From: Gigantopelta aegis
Taxonomy: Eukaryota > Mollusca > Gastropoda > Neomphalida > Peltospiridae
Direction: 5' to 3'
Length of the DNA stretch: 64,000 bases
Assembly: GCF_016097555.1 (NCBI RefSeq)
Contig: NC_054707.1
Location: 51,201,683-51,265,682, forward strand
Under the pieces are notes generated by a model. That model did no database searches. It was not told where the DNA came from and saw nothing but the letters and a program-made list of their open reading frames with translations. The translations under genes and the position numbers were made by a program. Of this stretch, positions 897 through 41,230 are shown in pieces; position 1 is the first letter of the stretch; each line of letters begins with the position of its first letter.

Positions 897-1046
<150 letters not shown>

Positions 1047-1059
1047 TCTGTGTCTCATA

Positions 1060-1678
1060 GAAACTTAACATAACAGATGTTGTGTGCTAGTAACTTGACA
1101 AGAGTAGTTCATTAAAATAGCTTTTAACCCTTCACTACTTTACCATATTCTTCTAATGTTAATTAGAATACTATTTGTAATTTCAATAACAATCACGTGC
1201 TCGTGAAAACACGTTGACGTATTAATTGGTGCATGTATAGCGGATGATTTATAAATAATGTTAAAATTACTGCAGTCAATAATATACATCATAAAGGTGA
1301 AGAAAAAACATGGTCCCGCCTTAACACAACACGCGGCATCGAATAAGCCTAGGGGCAGTTTCGTGTACTTTGTAGGAAGAACTGATAAGATATAATTGCA
1401 GTCAGAACCGGTAAAACCACCTCCTGGAAGACAAAAGTTTCCTAAAGTGCACAATTATCTCTGACGTTAGTAGATCCAAACGAACCCAACAACGTAAATC
1501 CAGTTGTTGAGCTAAGCCTTTAAATACATGAACAGACCAAGAAACAAATAAAAAAGTTGGATAATTATTACAATATTCTTTGACCCTAATTTGTTAAAAG
1601 TGAAAGATTTAAATTTAATATTTGAAAACAAAGTTCTTGAACTAGTTTCGTATAATTCTGTCTGCATTGACGACTAAC
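1060..1678 (+). other. Upstream region of the lectin gene
   Basis: Non-coding sequence before the start codon at 1679. It must hold the promoter and 5' UTR if the gene starts nearby. A TTTAAATA string near 1518 is TATA-like but cannot be assigned as functional from sequence alone. No repeat family was recognised. Confidence 0.3.
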
Positions 1679-15024
<13,346 letters not shown>

Positions 15025-17871: not shown

Positions 17872-18827
17872 TTAAGGGAGTCTGTTCCACTCCTCTTGCA
17901 GCGCTTGACCAAATTCCGCTAACGTGGTCGGCGGCCTTTGACGTTGACGCACACGTCTCCCTATCATGTCCAAGACGTGTTCAATGGCGGAAAGGTCTGG
18001 GCTCATTGCTGGCCATGGCATTCGATAGATGCTGTGCTGCTGGAGGTGAGCATTGACGATTCGTGCACGGTGAGCACGGGCATTGTTGTCCTGAAAAATA
18101 AAATGTCGACCCACACGCCTAGCAAACGGGACGACAAAGGGTTTCAGTATGTTGTCCCGGTAGTACTGCCCAGTGACCCTTCCTTGCACAATATGGGGGG
18201 GGGGGGGGTGTTTCTGTCAGTCATAGTGATACCACCCCACACCATAACCGATCCACAGCCAAATCTGTAATGAAATCGCAAGTGACGTTGGCGTGCCGTT
18301 CATTTCGTCGTCGCCAGACCCCACCACGCCTGTCAAAGAAGTCCAAAGTGAATAGGGAGTCATCTGAAAACATGACGTGACCAGCGACGAATACCCCATT
18401 TCTGACGCTCCCTACACCCTTCACATCTGTAGGCAATGTGACGATTTGTCAAGGTAGGCACAACCCGGGGCCGTCGAGCATGAAGGTGGGTTGCATGAAT
18501 ACGATTTCTAATCGTCTGACCCGTAACTCGGACACCAATAGCCTGATGCAGGTTTGCATCAATTTGACTTGCCGTTTGAGCTCGATTTCTTAGAGCCTGG
18601 TTACGGATGAATCGATCGTGTACTCCTGTCGTTGCCCTGGGACGACCTGAACGGGGTCGATCGTCAACATTTTGGGTTTGTTGGTACCTGTTCCATAGTC
18701 TGCTAATCACTAACTTCGAAACATTAAAGGTGTTGGCCACTTCACGCTGACGTCTGCCCGTTTGTAGCATGACAATAGCCCGTAGACGCTCATCGCGTTG
18801 CATACGCCGCATCGCAAATTCAAACAA
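17872..18827 (-). pseudogene. Tc1/mariner-like transposase, decayed
   Basis: The minus strand from 18827 gives an N-terminal DNA-binding region (RDERLRAIVMLQTG, FNVSKLVISRLW, GRPRATT) and then shifts frame near 18410. The catalytic core shows FSDDSLF (first Asp), IFQDNNARAHRAR and SPDLSAIEHVLDMI (Glu). In relatives the central motif is usually QDDNAR or QQDNAR, so the second catalytic Asp appears replaced by Asn. Two frameshifts, one at a G run near 18195, add to the damage. It ends EEWNRLP, as in related transposases. It starts 16 bp after the solo LTR, with no functional link implied. Confidence 0.88.
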
Positions 18828-19139
18828 TAAAAATTACTAAAAACAAAACAATATCAACTGTGTGATCAACAGAATGAAAAAGATTGACAGAAATAATGTT
18901 CCACAGTGTTTAATCGACCTTCCTGGGAATTGTCAAAATCGAGAATGACACCCACGCACATGTACGTGGCCATTGCGTGATGCACGTGCAAACTATGGAA
19001 TGTGTTTCGGTTTGTTGATAAACAGTCCTGAACGTTCTTTACTAGGAAGTCTGTGGTCAAAACGTATGTTCGGTGTAATAGTTGATATTAACATTAATAT
19101 TTCAGGTTCCCCTATGGAATGGAGTGTAAAAAATTTCTG
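18828..19139. other. Flank of the Tc1 remnant
   Basis: Probably includes the element's 5' leader. No inverted terminus was identified and no gene was supported. Confidence 0.4.
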
Positions 19140-34080: not shown

Positions 34081-34526
34081 AGAATAGATGTTTAACGACA
34101 CCCTAGCACACACAAAAAAATACATCGGCTATTGTGCGTCAAACTATGGTAAATGCAAACAGTAAGTGATGAACATCATCAAGATAAAAAATCAAGAGTT
34201 AAATAAAAACAGTGTAAAGAACTGTGCAAAAATACACACATCACAGATAGATAAAATAAAAATTTAGAATAAAAGTCAGTATCACGTAAACACTGTTGCA
34301 GACGAGTGCTGCACACATGCTGAAACTGAACCCAATTTGCCCTCACCAAATTCCACCTTTGAACCCTTTCAACTGATGGAGGTCCATCATTCTCCAAAAT
34401 AATGGGAAAGCGGTCACTACTACAAGAGTTTGGACCAACTTTCCAGGAGAAATCAACAAAAAGTGAAGGACTACAAAGGGTTACATCGATGAAAGTGAAA
34501 GAACCACTTGCAGCATGAAGATATGT
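34081..34526 (-). pseudogene. LINE L2w copy 2, 3' part (endonuclease fused to 3' tail)
   Basis: The minus strand from 34526 continues the endonuclease begun at 39678: TYLHAASGSFTFIDVT, FSWKVGPNSCSSDRFPI, RANWVQFQHVC. Near 34291 it jumps straight to the L2w C-terminus CLRDTDFYSKF and 3' UTR, so reverse transcriptase and RNase H are deleted. The 3' tail is a TATTC repeat at 34070-34090. Confidence 0.85.
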
Positions 34527-35042
34527 TAATCTCGATTGAGATTCAAAACTTCTACTGGCGTCGTTTGAATCTCGACGGCGAGTAAATAAATCAGCACTGG
34601 AAATTTTACAGGACGGATTCTGACACTAATATCGAACGTTCGTAAAAATCCAAACACCTGTTGTCGGCAAATATATGTTCCTCCAACATGATCGTTTTTT
34701 TACATACCTGACAATGTCAAGATTAGTAAATTTCCAAGCTTTTAATCCTTCTGACGTTCAAAGTGACTCCATTTTTTTAAAAATGGCTGAATATCATTCT
34801 ATAGTCTGTTCTAAAGATTTGTATTATTACTGTGTACATTCCACCTTTATTGGCGGTCCATTTATTCTAGTGAAATTGTATGTTTTGACTTGCATCTTAT
34901 TTGAGTCACTTTACATTAATGCTAAACATTAAATAAATTTATATAAGTAACTGGAAAAAAAAAAATATATAGTCATTTATTAGTAGTTGGACTATCACAT
35001 AGTGAAAATATATACAATTAAAAACACACATTTTTATATATT

Positions 35043-35086
<44 letters not shown>

Positions 35087-35270
35087 CGCATAAATATGAA
35101 CAAAGCTAAAAATGTGTTTTTAATGGGACAAAGAAATAGATATTATTAGACACCAATAATACAAATAAAAATATTAACATGTATAATACATGTATCAAAA
35201 TGTAACTGAAACTTAGTTTTTAAAAATACATGGGTTACACCCAATAGCCTCTGCTACACCACCCCACACC
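34527..35270 (+). repeat. Left inverted arm
   Basis: It pairs with 38900-39677 along its length, including CGAACGTTCGTAAAAATCC, TAGTAGTTGGACTATCACAT and the GT/GC run at 35049-35090. Short indels only. Confidence 0.9.
35049..35090 (+). repeat. (GT)n(GC)n microsatellite in left arm
   Basis: GT run followed by a CG run. The matching (GC)n(AC)n run in the right arm is at 39092-39140. Confidence 0.95.
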
Positions 35271-35590
35271 CTACATCTCCCCCCATTGCTATAAATGCAT
35301 ATAAACACCAATAATGCAAATAAAATAATTAACATGTATAATACATGTATCAAAATGTAACTGAAACTTAGTTTTTGAAAAATACATGGGTTACACCCAA
35401 CAGCCTCTGCTACACCACCCCACCCCCTACATCTCCCCCTTAGCTATAAATGCATATAAACACCAATAATGCAAATACCAAAAATATTAACATGTATAAT
35501 TAAAAATGTAACTGAAACTTAGTTTTTAAAAAATACATGGGTTACACCCAACAGCCTCTGCTACACCACCCCACCCCTACATCTCTCTCC
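35145..35590 (+). repeat. Three tandem ~180-bp copies at the inner end of the left arm
   Basis: Each copy runs from ACACCAATAATNCAAAT through AACATGTATAAT, GTAACTGAAACTTAG and ATACATGGGTTACACCCAA to a C-rich end, starting near 35150, 35305 and 35458. The right arm has one copy. Confidence 0.9.
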
Positions 35591-35613
35591 CCCCCCCCCC
35601 CCCCCCCCCCCCA
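35588..35613 (+). repeat. Poly(C) run
   Basis: About 24 C residues at the inner end of the left arm. Confidence 0.95.
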
Positions 35614-35707
35614 TATGCATTACATGGATAATATCAGTAAGTATAACGAAAATGCCTGCCTAGCTTGCCTGCGAGTATATTAGTGACTGCCTGTCACCTA
35701 TATCCGA

Positions 35708-36055
35708 CCGGTCTCGGTGGCGCAGTGGTTAAGCCATCGGTCTCCAGACTGGTAGGTACTGGGTTCGTATCCTAGTCAAGGCATGGTACTTTTAATCCAG
35801 ATACCGACGCCAAACCCTGAGCGAGTGCTCCGCAAGGCTCAATAGCTAGGTGTAACCCTCTTGCACCGACCAGTGTTCCATAACTGGTTCAACAAAGGCC
35901 AGGGTTTGTGCTATCCTGTCTATGGGAAACTGCATATAAAAGATCCCTTGCTACTTATCGAAAAAGAGTAGCCACAGTGCGGCGGTAGCAGGTTTCCTCT
36001 CTTCTACTAACATTAATAGCATGCTTGAACCTTAATTGGATGTAAGGACGAAAAT
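35708..36055 (+). mobile_element. tRNA-derived SINE, head A, tail C
   Basis: Head CGGTCTCGGTGGCGCAGTGG, body as in 32731-33118, but the tail is GCATGCTTGAACCTTAATTG, the type C end. Confidence 0.88.
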
Positions 36056-36204
36056 AAATATAATCAACCAACCATTACTATTTTGTTCTCAGTAGTAATA
36101 CAATATATTATGGAGCCATCCATGGATCTTAATTACTTTGTACTTCGCTTCATATTCACTTATTTTTATATAAGCAAAATTTGTTTGATCTACCGCTCCA
36201 TTTA

Positions 36205-36425
36205 TAATGTGTGGAACGGGATGTACTTAGTGGTAGCGCGTCTGGCTGACGCGCAGTACGTTGTCGGATCCATTTTCTTACTGAATATCTTAGGCAATTT
36301 CCTGTTCAATAAAGGCTGTGGTATGTGCTGTCCCATCTATGGGAATGTGCATACATACGAACAATTGCTGCTAATAGAAAAATAGTAGCCTACTTGGCGG
36401 CAGAGGTTTTTTTTTTGTAGATCTA
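36205..36425 (+). mobile_element. SINE, head B, degraded
   Basis: Head ACGGGATGTACTTAGTGGT, body GGCTGTGGTATGTGCTGTCC and TTGCTGCTAATAGAAAA. The tail is not clear. Confidence 0.75.
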
Positions 36426-36747
36426 GTATAAAAAATACAGTATGCTTGACATTTAATATCAGAAACCTTTTAATAATTATAATTTCAGATATAAAACGTG
36501 AACGATATTCAGTTATCTTTATATCACCAGAGACGGCAATATCGAAATACTGGCGGAAATTGTTCTTATCCGAAGATTTGAAGTCAAAACTATATTTGCT
36601 GGCATGCGATGAATCACACTGTATTTCAGAATGGTATTATAATTGTAATATAACTGCTTTTTGTGGGTTTTTTTGTCATTCAGTAGTAGATTGTCCAGCT
36701 GAGGTGCAATAGGTAATTTAATCGACGCCCTATGTAGACACACTATC

Positions 36748-36973
36748 TGTCGTGATAAGTATAAATTATTATCGCCTTGGCATTAACGCTGGTGTAGGCA
36801 AGGCGTGAGCTATAAATGATCTTCCTCTGAATGTGCACGTCAAATCCAAAAAAAGAAGTATGTCGTGATAAGTATAAATTATTATCGCCTTGGCATTAAC
36901 GCTGGTGTAGGCAAGGCGTGAGCTATAAATGATCTTCCTCTGAATGTGCACGTCAAATCCAAAAAAAGAAGTA
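36748..36973 (+). repeat. Perfect 113-bp tandem duplication
   Basis: 36748-36860 and 36861-36973 are identical by eye, starting TGTCGTGATAAGTATAAA and containing GGCAAGGCGTGAGCTATAAA. It lies in the first visible intron of the helicase pseudogene. Confidence 0.95.
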
Positions 36974-37474
36974 AGCACTGCTAGTCAACACTGACAGTGA
37001 CACTTCTAAACACAATGCTGCTAATGTTGCCGCTGCTGCAACCAAAGTATAAACTAGGCTAAAACCAAAATTTTAAACAGAGCGTGCTAGTGAGTGAGTG
37101 AATGTTGTTTGTATTAAAATCATGTTCTAGACAAACGTAGAGCTCATATGAAATGGTCATAATAATTTATTATTTGAAGCAAAAATGGAAGGAGTAGCTG
37201 AGATTGTTTGTGTTCAATTGCCAGTTTCATGCCGTTATTTATTATCACGTCCTACCTTAAGGGGAGAAGACTTCAGACCAGTTTACAAAGAGGTAATGAA
37301 TTTGAGAAGCTTAATAGATTCACCGGTATTAGCAGTCACTGCTACATGTGATGAAAAGGTGCGAAAAGACATTTTCACAACCCTTTGCTTAAGAGAGAAT
37401 GACACATTGACTGTCGCAGTGGTACCAGATAGGTTGGTAAAATGATTCAATAGTAGATATGACAGAATATTAAA

Positions 37475-37508
37475 AGTTATATTATATATTATATATATAT
37501 ATATATAT
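37475..37508. repeat. Short (AT)n run
   Basis: ATATTATATATTATATAT-type run in a helicase intron. Confidence 0.85.
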
Positions 37509-38899
37509 CGGTAGAAACTAGAATTCCACTTTCTGCAGGTAGAATCTTAGATCCTACCAGTAGATCAGATAAAAAAAACCCACATATGAAAACAAAAAAA
37601 CAATACTGATATATTGCTATATAGATTTATAGTGGCACATGTAATTCTTTTTTTGTCAGTTGGAAAATGTGAATAGTTCAGTGTTTACTGTATTAATTGT
37701 ATAGCTGTATTTATGATGCTGTTTTGTTATAATGTATTGTTTTGTTATAATGTATGACATTAAAATACCTTCATCAAGATACCATGTAATACTAATAGTT
37801 TAATTCTGAGATTGTACCGGATTTCAATTTCAACCACGACACATGTCTATATATACACACACTTATCGGTTACATAATTGACAGTTATAAATATATTTTC
37901 TATTTTGTATTATTTGTTTTTGCAGAGCAAACATTTTTCTGGATGTTCGTAGTTCTAAACAAGACTATGAAACTGATCTAGACTGGTTGTTTAAGTACAT
38001 TTTAAAAAGACAGAAAGAAGCCATTAAAATGATAGTGTATTGCAGGTATTATATTCTTTGGAAAAAATGTTAACATATTATAAAAAGTACCTACTTGTCA
38101 TTGGAGAAAACAAGAATCCTTAAATTATATTCGTCTTACGTTATAAGTGACAAAGATATTTAATTTTTGGTTTAAAATTGTTCAAATATCATATTGTAGC
38201 CTGTGATAATAGAGACTACCTAAGGCCAAATATAGTATGTTTGGCCACTCACATAGACACACATAACGTGTGAACTAGTAATTGACTGAATCTGTTTGTT
38301 TCATTTTTAGGACTGTGAGCAATGCTGCCATGCTGTACAACCACATAAAAGACTTGCTTGTTATTAGAGGAATTCAACATAGCCTTGTGAACATGTTTCA
38401 TAAATCCATAGATTTACATCTGAAAAAATATTAGATAATTTCATAAACAGGGACAGTACATTAAGGGTTTTATTTTCTACAATAGCCTTTGGGATGGGGA
38501 TACAAATTCCAGATGTAACAGTTATTATTCATTGGGGGTCCCAAAATCCATTTTAAGCTACTGGCAAGAGGTTGGGACGGCAGGGAGGGACGGCCATCAA
38601 GCATATGCAATTTGCTATGCTTATGGCCGTAGCATGGATGAAATACGTCCGAAAGTATGATTGCAGTGTGTAAGGGTGTGATAGCGGCCGAAAAGTGTGC
38701 ACGAATGGAAGTTCTGCGAGCGTTGTCTGTTAAAGGAATGGATGCCATAGAACTGCAAACAGCTGGTACATGTGATGGGAAATGTATGACAAAGTGTGCA
38801 TGTTGCCTTTGTGTTTGTTGTAGTGTGTGTTTCGATAAGTATGCTTGTGTAAATAAATATGTATCCATATGGAAAAAGATAGGATTGGGCGATTGAAGA

Positions 38900-39097
38900 A
38901 AAATGTAGGGGATGGGGTGGTGTAGCAGAGGCTGTTGGGTGTAACCCATGTATTTTTCAAAAACTAAGTTTCAGTTACATTTTGATACATGTATTATACA
39001 TGTTAATATTTTTATTTGTATTATTGGTGTCTGATAATATCTATTTCTTTGTCCCATGAAAAGCACATTTTTAGCTTTGTTCATATTTATGCGCGCG

Positions 39098-39145
<48 letters not shown>

Positions 39146-39677
39146 AATATATAAAAATGTAATAAAAATGTGTGCTTTTAATTGTATATATTTTCACTAT
39201 GTGATAGTCCAACTACTAATAAATGACTATATATATATTATTTTTTCTCCAGTTATTTATATAAATTTATTTAATGTTTAGCATTAATGCAAAGTGACTC
39301 ATATAAGATGCAAGTCAAAACATACAATTTCAGTAGAAAAATATGGACTGCCAATAAAGGTGGAATGTACACAATAATAATAACAATCTTTAGAACAGAC
39401 TATAGGATGATATTCAGTCATTTAAAAAAAAAATGGAGTCACTTTGAACGTCAGAAGGATTAAAAGCTTGGAAATTTACTAATCTTGACATTGTCAGGTA
39501 TGTAAAAAACGATCATGTTAGAGGAACATATATTTGCCGACAACAGGTGTTTGGATTTTTACGAACGTTCGATATTAGTGTCAGAATCCGTCCTGTAAAA
39601 TTTCCAGTGCTGATTTATTTACTCGCCGTCGAGATTCAAACGACGCCAGTAGAAGTTTTGAATCTTAATCGAGATTA
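38900..39677 (-). repeat. Right inverted arm
   Basis: Reverse complement of 34527-35270. It starts beyond the helicase stop codon at ATGTAGGGGATGGGGTGG and ends GAGATTA at 39677. Confidence 0.9.
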
Positions 39678-41230
39678 GAAGATATGTATTACTTTAATCA
39701 TTGAATAAAAGTAAGTCATTTTTGAGAATTAAGTCTTCCAATTGTTTTCCTCTAATATTAATATCCTCGCACCCCCACAAAGTGTGGTGAGCATTAAAAT
39801 CCTCCATAATAATAAAGGGAGTAGGGAGCTGGTCAATAAGATCTTGAAGATCCCTTGGTTTACAATTTAAATGGCTACGCGGTGGCAAGTAAACTGAACA
39901 TAGAGTAATAGTTTTATGAGCTGTAACGTTTACAGCCACAGCTGGTAAATTAGTATGCAATGTCACTATACTCTGATGAATGTTGTCATTAACAAGAATT
40001 GAAACACATTCAGATTATCTATTTTCAGTTTCATGAAACCTATCACAGAGGTTAAATCCTCTTATAGTAATATAACCTGTGTCCTCCAAGAAAGTTTCTT
40101 GAAGACACACTGCAATAGGATTATGTTTTTGAATTAAAAGGCTTAGTTAATAAAATTGGGCCTTAAAACCACGGCTCTTTCACCGAATGACTGATTAATT
40201 ATTAGGCGGAAGCACGGGAGTTATCTTTGGCTTATGAGAATTGTGTGGTTGAGAACAATCGTCTGGCACTATATCAATTTTATCATCCAAATCAGCCAAA
40301 GCTTCAAAAAGATTGTTGGTCGGAACCAACTGTTTTTCATATTTCTTCAGTCGTCCCGAAGAAGAATCCTTTTTGTGTTTCTTAGTGTCTTTTCGTGGCG
40401 GAGGCTTACTGGGACCTGGCTCCCCAGAAGATGAGCCTCTTGGTGGATTTCCAGAATCCAAAGACACCTGGGCAGATTTTGACATTTTGTTATTAGCAGC
40501 TTTTGTAGTTTGCTTTTGAACCTGTTCAAGATCAGAAATCTTCTGAAATTTATCCTCACTGTTTGGCCAAGTCAAGTCAGTTTGAATAGCTACACTGGTT
40601 GTAGAAACCTTCACAGCTGTGGCATACGATCTACCTGGTGCCAAATTAGTGGAAGTATCTACAATGTATCTAGCATCAGTAAAAGACAGGTGCTTTTCTA
40701 CTTTCACCTGCTGTACCTGTTGTTCCGCTTTCCACTTTGGGCACTATCGCGACAAGGGTACATGCAGCTGCGGAAAACCTCCAGACAATCATGCCAGGGA
40801 TACATAGTATATACTCAGGCAATAAAAAAGAATAAATCACTTGATTGACCCTAGCTACCGCCCCAAGAGCAACAAATACAAATGGTCATTCAAACAATGT
40901 TTGTTCTTGGCTAATGTAACAAAACAAAGGGTTGTATGCTTTAGAGCTTAACATGACCAGCCGATTGATCAGGTCGGGCCTTCCTGACCACCCGTCTGTT
41001 TGAACTCCGGGCCAAATTAAAGTGATGTATTGTCAGAAGTCATGCCCGCAGGTATGCCCCAACCAGGATCCCATCATCCATCTTCACGAGTTGCACCTTA
41101 CGGCCAACAAGGTGCCTCAAAAGGGGAGTTGTACTGTATTAGCCATTCTCAACGAGAATGTTTCAGCCCTGCACCATGGTGAGGTTACAGTACATCCAGG
41201 GTTACACAATAACAATAAAATATCTTACCA
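39678..41230 (-). pseudogene. LINE L2w copy 2, 5' part (ORF1 and endonuclease N-terminus)
   Basis: On the minus strand, ~40850-40190 gives a gag-like ORF1: CPKWKAEQQVQQVKVEKHL, FTDARYIVDT, SYATAVK, SVAIQTDLTW and a basic RKDTKKHKK tract. The CPKW...EAR region follows zinc knuckles in Jockey-type ORF1; the knuckles themselves are stop-ridden here. 39966-39694 gives the endonuclease start: LCSVYLPPRS and IIMEDFNAHHTLWGC (usually GDFNAHH; Gly is Glu here). Sequence to ~41230 is probably the LINE 5' UTR. The coding text resumes at 34526 on the far side of the inserted 5.15-kb element. Confidence 0.8.

Follow-up and report, generated by a model that had tools for sequence, protein, structure and literature searches.

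The window, by which we mean the whole 64,000-nucleotide stretch of Gigantopelta aegis DNA analyzed here, contains a mobile element with long inverted arms and a broken RecQ-type helicase gene. With moderate confidence, we favor the view that this copy belongs to a young Mutator-type family with foldback-shaped arms, that it is non-autonomous and has lost part of its interior, and that a longer ancestor carried the RecQ gene against its right arm. This view is based on the arms themselves, the 9-10 bp target duplications, the young multi-copy family to which the element belongs, and the recurrence of the same border between RecQ gene and arm in other copies.

Alignment of the left and right arms of the window copy (Table 1) gave 726 identical columns, 23 mismatches and 27 gap columns; the arms are therefore identical in 726 of 749 ungapped columns, in keeping with the long terminal inverted repeats (TIRs) of Mutator elements, and the outermost 150 columns hold a single mismatch. 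In single-stranded DNA, the palindrome at the left-arm tip can form a fold (outer 80 nt, z -3.2). The element is flanked by a perfect 10-bp target duplication, and no 9-mer match occurred among 200,000 random pairs drawn from the two 1-kb flanks. When the flanks were joined to recreate the empty site, a single endonuclease reading frame of a long interspersed nuclear element (LINE) ran over the junction, and the right-hand LINE piece matched Pfam Exo_endo_phos_2 at 2.5e-15. The interrupted LINE copy is itself decayed, with an in-frame stop beside the junction. The original prediction had named the inverted arms, the perfect duplication and the LINE frame restored by removal of the element; all were borne out, with the arm borders now set as in Table 1. 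The element also has the foldback trait of arms that make up much of its length and are accompanied by tandem repeats, here of 155 bp, one copy of which lies in the right arm.

We then looked for relatives in the host genome (1.149 Gb, 5216 contigs). The first 300 bp of the arm, with 40 of 85 candidates scored, gave at least 43 matches, at least 40 of them long, including the two ends of the window copy. The sample of arm-bearing places comprised the window and 32 fetched stretches, 33 in total (L042 overlaps L027), and one-ended stretches covered up to 10 kb. Among the 15 two-ended copies, eight have a perfect 9-bp duplication with no shift (L021, L024, L025, L026, L027, L037, L048 and L051), L022 and L029 have one mismatch in nine, L023 and L040 are imperfect, and no target duplication was found at L049 or L028. 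Together with the 10 bp of the window copy, these lengths match the 8-11 bp duplications of Mutator elements. Over the outer 270 bp, 38 of 42 aligned ends are 0-3.3% from the consensus; the remaining four lie at 6.3, 8.9, 26.9 and 29.0%, and less than 250 bp of arm is left in each. This alignment left out L028, L050 and L042, as well as the right ends of one-ended or heavily truncated copies (e.g. L029 and L040). In L022 and L026 the element is mostly arm-derived sequence. The family is thus young, multi-copy and recently spread, which upholds the earlier claim that the element is mobile. Because the Mutator superfamily accommodates both 9-bp duplications and foldback arms, we assign the family to Mutator-type, or Mutator-like element (MULE)-like, foldback-shaped DNA elements that are non-autonomous as far as seen.

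Two side observations concern individual arm copies. L045 (C1:44143839) and L047 (C1:43975392) have the same left flank and a similar arm, lie ~170 kb apart, and look like one duplicated insertion within a segmental duplication; each has a distant RecQ-like match 7-15 kb upstream. An insertion hot spot is also seen in the arms around CCTATAG: L024, L027, L049, L050 and L052 (and perhaps L026 and L037) carry insertions at arm position ~278, of at least two unrelated kinds, namely a ~450-bp relative of the L050 insertion in L024, L027 and L049, and an unrelated 2.5-kb insertion in L052.

What is left of the gene in the window copy is the C-terminal half of a RecQ-type helicase, and it is broken. 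As read from the sequence, its three introns are GT-AG and all in phase 2, and the stop codon (38894-38896) lies six bases before the inner edge of the right arm at 38903. The spliced product matched Pfam Helicase_C at 2.7e-9 and DEAD at 2.7e-4, the latter under the curated cut-off, and human WRN at 7.9e-32. Compared with copy L025, the last exon of the window copy is short by 4, 1 and 4 bp at three places and the arginine of motif VI is replaced by T. The 1-bp loss is also present in a further copy, J (L045 with its continuation L053), and L025 itself is without 2 bp near its end that are kept in the window copy, J, L021 and L037. By the usual naming of helicase motifs, motif I and all before it are missing from the window copy, and two copies of a tRNA-type short interspersed nuclear element (SINE) occupy the place where the N-terminal half is missing. 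The original prediction of a RecQ-like helicase in four in-phase exons as the sole coding content of the interior is to be narrowed: what the interior keeps is a broken C-terminal half.

Table 1. Features of the element copy and its target site (positions are those of the window)
Feature	Position	Strand	Remarks
Element, window copy	34527-39677		5.15 kb, of which arms 1.5 kb
Target duplication, left copy, GAAGATATGT	34517-34526	.	Perfect over 10 bp
Target duplication, right copy, GAAGATATGT	39678-39687	.	Perfect over 10 bp
Left inverted arm, begins TAATCTCGATTGAGATTC	34527-35276	+	Outer ~270 bp common to nearly all sampled copies
Terminal palindrome AATCTCGATTGAGATT at left-arm tip	34528-34543	+	Imperfect in right arm
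155-bp tandem repeat	35150-35585	+	2.8 copies, at and past inner end of left arm
tRNA-type SINE copy	35706-36065	+	Ends by eye; ARAGORN tRNA-like head 35711-35783
Second SINE-like copy, part	36304-36390	+	More diverged; 77% to first SINE
Helicase exon 1 of those remaining	36489-36633	+	DESH box, CISEW
Tandem duplication in helicase first intron	36748-36973	+	113 bp, perfect
Helicase exon 2 of those remaining	37262-37432	+	
Helicase exon 3 of those remaining	37926-38045	+	Borders by reading sequence; region kept in copy C7:15545909-15546263
Helicase last exon, to stop codon	38311-38896	+	Three frame-breaking deletions, Cys-rich tail
Right inverted arm	38903-39677	-	Inner edge 6 bp past helicase stop codon

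The RecQ gene is cargo that the family carries at a fixed place. A one-off capture by the window copy is excluded because the same gene sits against the arms in other copies. With last-exon DNA as the query, a genome search in which all 12 candidates were scored gave 15 matches, spread over 11 places; this DNA adjoins a family arm at all 11, and the same border is kept at 10. The RecQ-bearing places examined at length were the window, L021, L025, L037, L051 and J. In J, 40 bp of the right arm are left beside the RecQ gene; at the L025 border, ~16 bases of the arm edge are followed by ~80 bases of other sequence and then by arm; and L051, the place that departs from the common border, has a RecQ fragment without its last ~70 bp adjoining an arm fragment. 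At the five other places, where 480 bases downstream were fetched, the downstream sequence starts with the inner edge of the arm in each case, L057 having only 46 bp of arm. Other arm copies thus do flank the same RecQ-like gene, the opposite of what the original prediction had named as grounds for giving it up.

Every RecQ copy found is 5′-truncated, and the left limits are nested. In window coordinates they fall at 36489 (window copy), 37706, 38198, 38304 (L025), between 38061 and 38304 (C9:40721513), at 38335 in three places, at 38627 in one and at 38793 in two; L021 and L037 share exactly the same junction. The three copies that begin at 38335 suggest one amplified deletion derivative. DNA of exons 1-3 was found in the window copy only, plus the C7:15545909 copy for exon 3 (19 of 19 candidates scored), alongside 17 short AT-rich matches.

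In a protein search of the genome (64 matches; 85 of 85 candidates scored), all matches of at least 63% identity lay at the 11 element places named above, and the remaining RecQ-like matches, 24-50% identical, lay at about 33 places. Neither DNA nor protein searches of the genome found a free-standing RecQ gene more than 50% identical to that of the element. As for the identifiable host gene that is a trait of Pack-MULEs, no parent above 50% identity was found in the genome, which has about 33 distant RecQ-like places, e.g. C3:31649328, C6:22462422, C6:61116958, C8:79620344 and C15:32738490. Nine of these places match mainly residues ~186-250, at 42-48%. Vertebrates have five RecQ genes, far fewer than the RecQ-like places of this host.

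The element helicase scored 114 bits against human WRN, 103 against RECQ5, 96 against Escherichia coli RecQ, 92 against RECQ1 and 86 against BLM, whereas the same segment of human WRN scored 198 against E. coli RecQ, 184 against RECQ1, 168 against BLM and 161 against RECQ5. Even the best score of the element helicase against a human RecQ (114 bits) thus falls below the 198 bits between human WRN and E. coli RecQ, so that the gene is no fresh copy of a conserved repair gene. A recent capture of WRN, BLM or another conserved host RecQ was rejected on these low scores and on the lack of any match above 50% outside the element. The helicase is thus a deep branch or a fast-evolving one, and the few percent of decay since insertion cannot explain its distance. 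Among prokaryote genome contigs, 12 bacterial loci were 25-33% identical to the helicase; viral contigs gave two pattern matches for the helicase protein, no relative, and none for the arm pattern.

MULE transposases are abundant in the genome: scoring 150 of 346 candidates gave at least 150 matches over the cut-off. No family transposase was seen by eye among the long open reading frames of eight two-ended copies, 16 one-ended stretches and J. Of the 150 scored MULE transposases, two have a sampled arm within 30 kb and only one, in L050, has one within 20 kb. The latter (L050:609-3420; C7:16692970-16695781) has an intact 429-aa frame matching Pfam MULE at 8.3e-10 and was rejected as the family's own, since it belongs to a different, nested element with its own ends, inserted in the arm at ~278. 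The other, C1:44165416, is 21 kb from the left arm of J and 9.6 kb from its RecQ gene, past the broken right arm. J itself (C1:44144139 onward) was rejected as a full-length copy: it has a nested LINE, only the last part of RecQ, and a right arm that breaks after the 40 bp mentioned above. Tc1-like transposase frames seen by eye in L051 were assigned to a nested element, since the target duplications of Tc1-type elements are TA, according to the parts consulted of two papers (PMC8277862, PMC10045372).

A candidate relative, to be taken only as a lead, is the pair at C7:1384135-1389759, in which a distant non-family RecQ (C7:1384135-1384871) is followed 4.6 kb downstream on the same strand by a MULE transposase. 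This RecQ ranks third by score outside the family, with 41-45% identity across two stretches that each exceed 100 residues. The chance expectation of RecQ-MULE pairs within 5.5 kb is 0.05 for the 150 scored transposases, and about double that should all 346 candidates be genuine. Three similarly scoring MULE transposases (C4:89998992, C3:58756440 and C3:46872430) have no RecQ match within 30 kb, which weakens the lead.

Several known systems resemble the window family in part; the published comparisons that follow draw on the sections consulted of each paper. Foldback Mutator elements include Tetris of Drosophila virilis, with arms up to 1,735 bp and internal tandem repeats of ~220 bp (PMC4079207), and FB4, with ~700-bp arms, together with its Pack form Ssk-FB4 (PMC8277862). 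Like the window family, they have long arms, internal tandem repeats, 8-10 bp duplications, no known transposase and a variable interior, and elements with such arms have mostly been assigned to Mutator (PMC4079207, PMC8277862); however, those sections mention no helicase, and Ssk-FB4 has another captured gene. Muta1 and other insect MULEs share TIRs that are mostly long, target duplications of 8-9 bp and non-autonomous derivatives whose mixed interiors include host gene fragments (PMC5225508), but their transposase is known and no helicase is mentioned there. Transposase-less MuDR-like elements with MuDR-type ends and 9-bp duplications likewise carry one non-transposase gene, which is Fanzor1 rather than RecQ (PMC3627910). 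RecQ helicases are found in the DNA transposons KolobokH, where the gene lies downstream of the transposase, and Kolobok-1_CCri (PMC9587614), as in the window family, where the gene of the window copy is broken. KolobokH differs in having 4-bp TTAA duplications and RR..YY termini, as against 9-10 bp and TAA..TTA, and is reported only from fungi (PMC9587614). Academ DNA transposons also carry a RecQ-type helicase (PMC3627910); AcademH occurs in animals and fungi according to a paper title cited in PMC10799480 and PMC10045372, Academ and Kolobok helicases are described in fungi (PMC10799480), and subtelomeric RecQ genes are known in a fungus (PMC4522978). An RNase H-like survey (PMC3985635) held nothing relevant in the part consulted, and among the top matches in the open-license literature we recognized no description, in the portions consulted, of a RecQ helicase in a Mutator-type element. 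The original claim of an undescribed system nevertheless went too far, given that the 9-bp duplications and foldback arms fit Mutator and that RecQ is known in KolobokH and Academ. In the window copy, the helicase is the only protein domain seen. Academ target duplications are short, at 3-4 bp, as compared with 9-10 bp in the window family.

A number of results weigh against our favored interpretation. RecQ DNA was found in only 6 of the 33 arm-bearing places, in one case only once L053 had been included. Pairwise dN/dS (nonsynonymous to synonymous substitution ratio) among six RecQ copies is 0.44-3.41 (15 pairs) and looks neutral; the copies show no sign of constraint since they separated, which says nothing on the ancestor, and a burst from a single master followed by decay would give the same neutral differences. 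A six-frame Pfam scan of the window copy, covering the interior and the left arm (to which the right arm is 97% alike, gaps aside), found no transposase, as the original prediction had also noted: the interior gave Helicase_C only, and the left arm only Mucin (E 0.81, far under the cut-off). L048, at 9.1 kb the longest two-ended copy examined and one with a perfect 9-bp duplication, was rejected as a full-length copy after six frames of locus 1001-8700 gave no Pfam match and hence no transposase. Finally, the TAA..TTA termini lack the G/C-rich first three bases of most arthropod MULEs, which is a trend and not a rule according to the part consulted (PMC13359780).

Some of these results would also be expected if a foldback element or MULE without coding capacity took up a 3′ part of a RecQ gene and multiplied as a multi-copy Pack-MULE, with no role for the helicase in transposition. 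We give this a substantial, though minority, share of the probability. The minority of arm copies with RecQ, the host-style introns, the truncation of all copies found and the neutral differences among six of them point this way, and the about 33 other RecQ-like places could have held a source; flies are known to have foldback Pack-MULEs whose arms measure ~700 bp and whose duplications span 9-10 bp, as described for Ssk-FB4 in the part consulted (PMC8277862). A source of more than 50% identity was nevertheless not found, even though 38 of the 42 aligned ends differ from the consensus by no more than 3.3%, and the window copy keeps four exons that end exactly at the natural stop codon, 6 bp short of the arm. 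The original alternative of own gene or capture is thus narrowed, because high-identity RecQ was found only inside the family, where its position is fixed: a one-off capture falls away, a resident gene and an old amplified capture both stand, and we lean toward the resident gene. It is improbable that the family lies outside the Mutator superfamily, with another transposase and only the 9-10 bp duplication length in common with it. The failure to see a family transposase in the copies examined would fit this, as would termini unusual among MULEs (PMC13359780) and the fact that published RecQ genes are so far those of Academ and Kolobok (PMC9587614, PMC3627910; parts consulted). The genome, however, is rich in MULE transposases, as its at least 150 matches attest. 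The 9 bp of the family also differ from the 3-4 bp of Academ. They differ likewise from the 4-bp TTAA of Kolobok (PMC9587614) and fall within the 4-10 bp made by MuDR/IS256-type elements (PMC10045372), and such foldback elements are mostly placed in Mutator (PMC4079207, PMC8277862), as far as the consulted sections go. An assembly artefact or a chance inverted repeat can be practically dismissed. It is general knowledge that chimeric reads can yield long inverted arms, and the original prediction had named an assembly artefact among its possible refutations, but copies on several chromosome-scale contigs have their own, different perfect 9-bp duplications, and the LINE frame continues over the join.

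Other features of the window were noted in passing. The sequence at 35590-35973 (poly-C and SINE head) recurs in 6 of 12 other two-ended copies compared (L023, L024, L027, L029, L040 and L051), at 91-96% identity and in both orientations, and is therefore probably an independent dispersed repeat. The SINE is 15% off a consensus built from few copies, which is too weak for dating. The 113-bp duplication in the first intron, being perfect, would have arisen very recently, unless it is an effect of assembly. Elsewhere, two Tc1-like transposase remnants lie on the minus strand (4720-5808 and 17875-18833; Pfam DDE_3 and HTH_Tnp_Tc3_2), and a tandem array at 12412-13303 is a minisatellite in which a repeated peptide (LLYGHQSDTEMVSDVLKT) is coded in several frames. 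An Rfam scan gave no matches at gathering thresholds.

Our preferred model is that the window copy descends by internal deletion from an ancestor in which the 3′ end of a RecQ-type helicase gene would have lain directly at the right arm. The data support ends of the cut-and-paste type, the 9-10 bp duplications, recent spread and internal deletion on repeated occasions. The window copy would presumably need another element's transposase to move. Such a transposase, given in trans by a relative, would bind the outer ~270 bp of the arms, excise the element and insert it with staggered cuts 9 bp apart (10 bp for the window copy), and interrupted gap repair after excision may repeatedly have deleted the interior from the 5′ side. 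Most speculatively, the ancestor's helicase may have been a working accessory protein that would unwind, or restart DNA synthesis at, the hairpin-prone long arms during transposition or gap repair. The further proposal, that an animal Mutator-type lineage encodes both a MULE transposase and a dedicated RecQ helicase and that the window copy is its deletion derivative, we regard as possible but doubtful. If RecQ does belong to a Mutator-type element, this would be the third transposon superfamily with such a gene, after Kolobok and Academ, and a 3′-5′ DNA helicase would look like a recurrent aid to cut-and-paste transposition or to the repair of excision gaps. If the gene is instead an amplified capture, the family would represent a multi-copy, Pack-MULE-like case in an animal.

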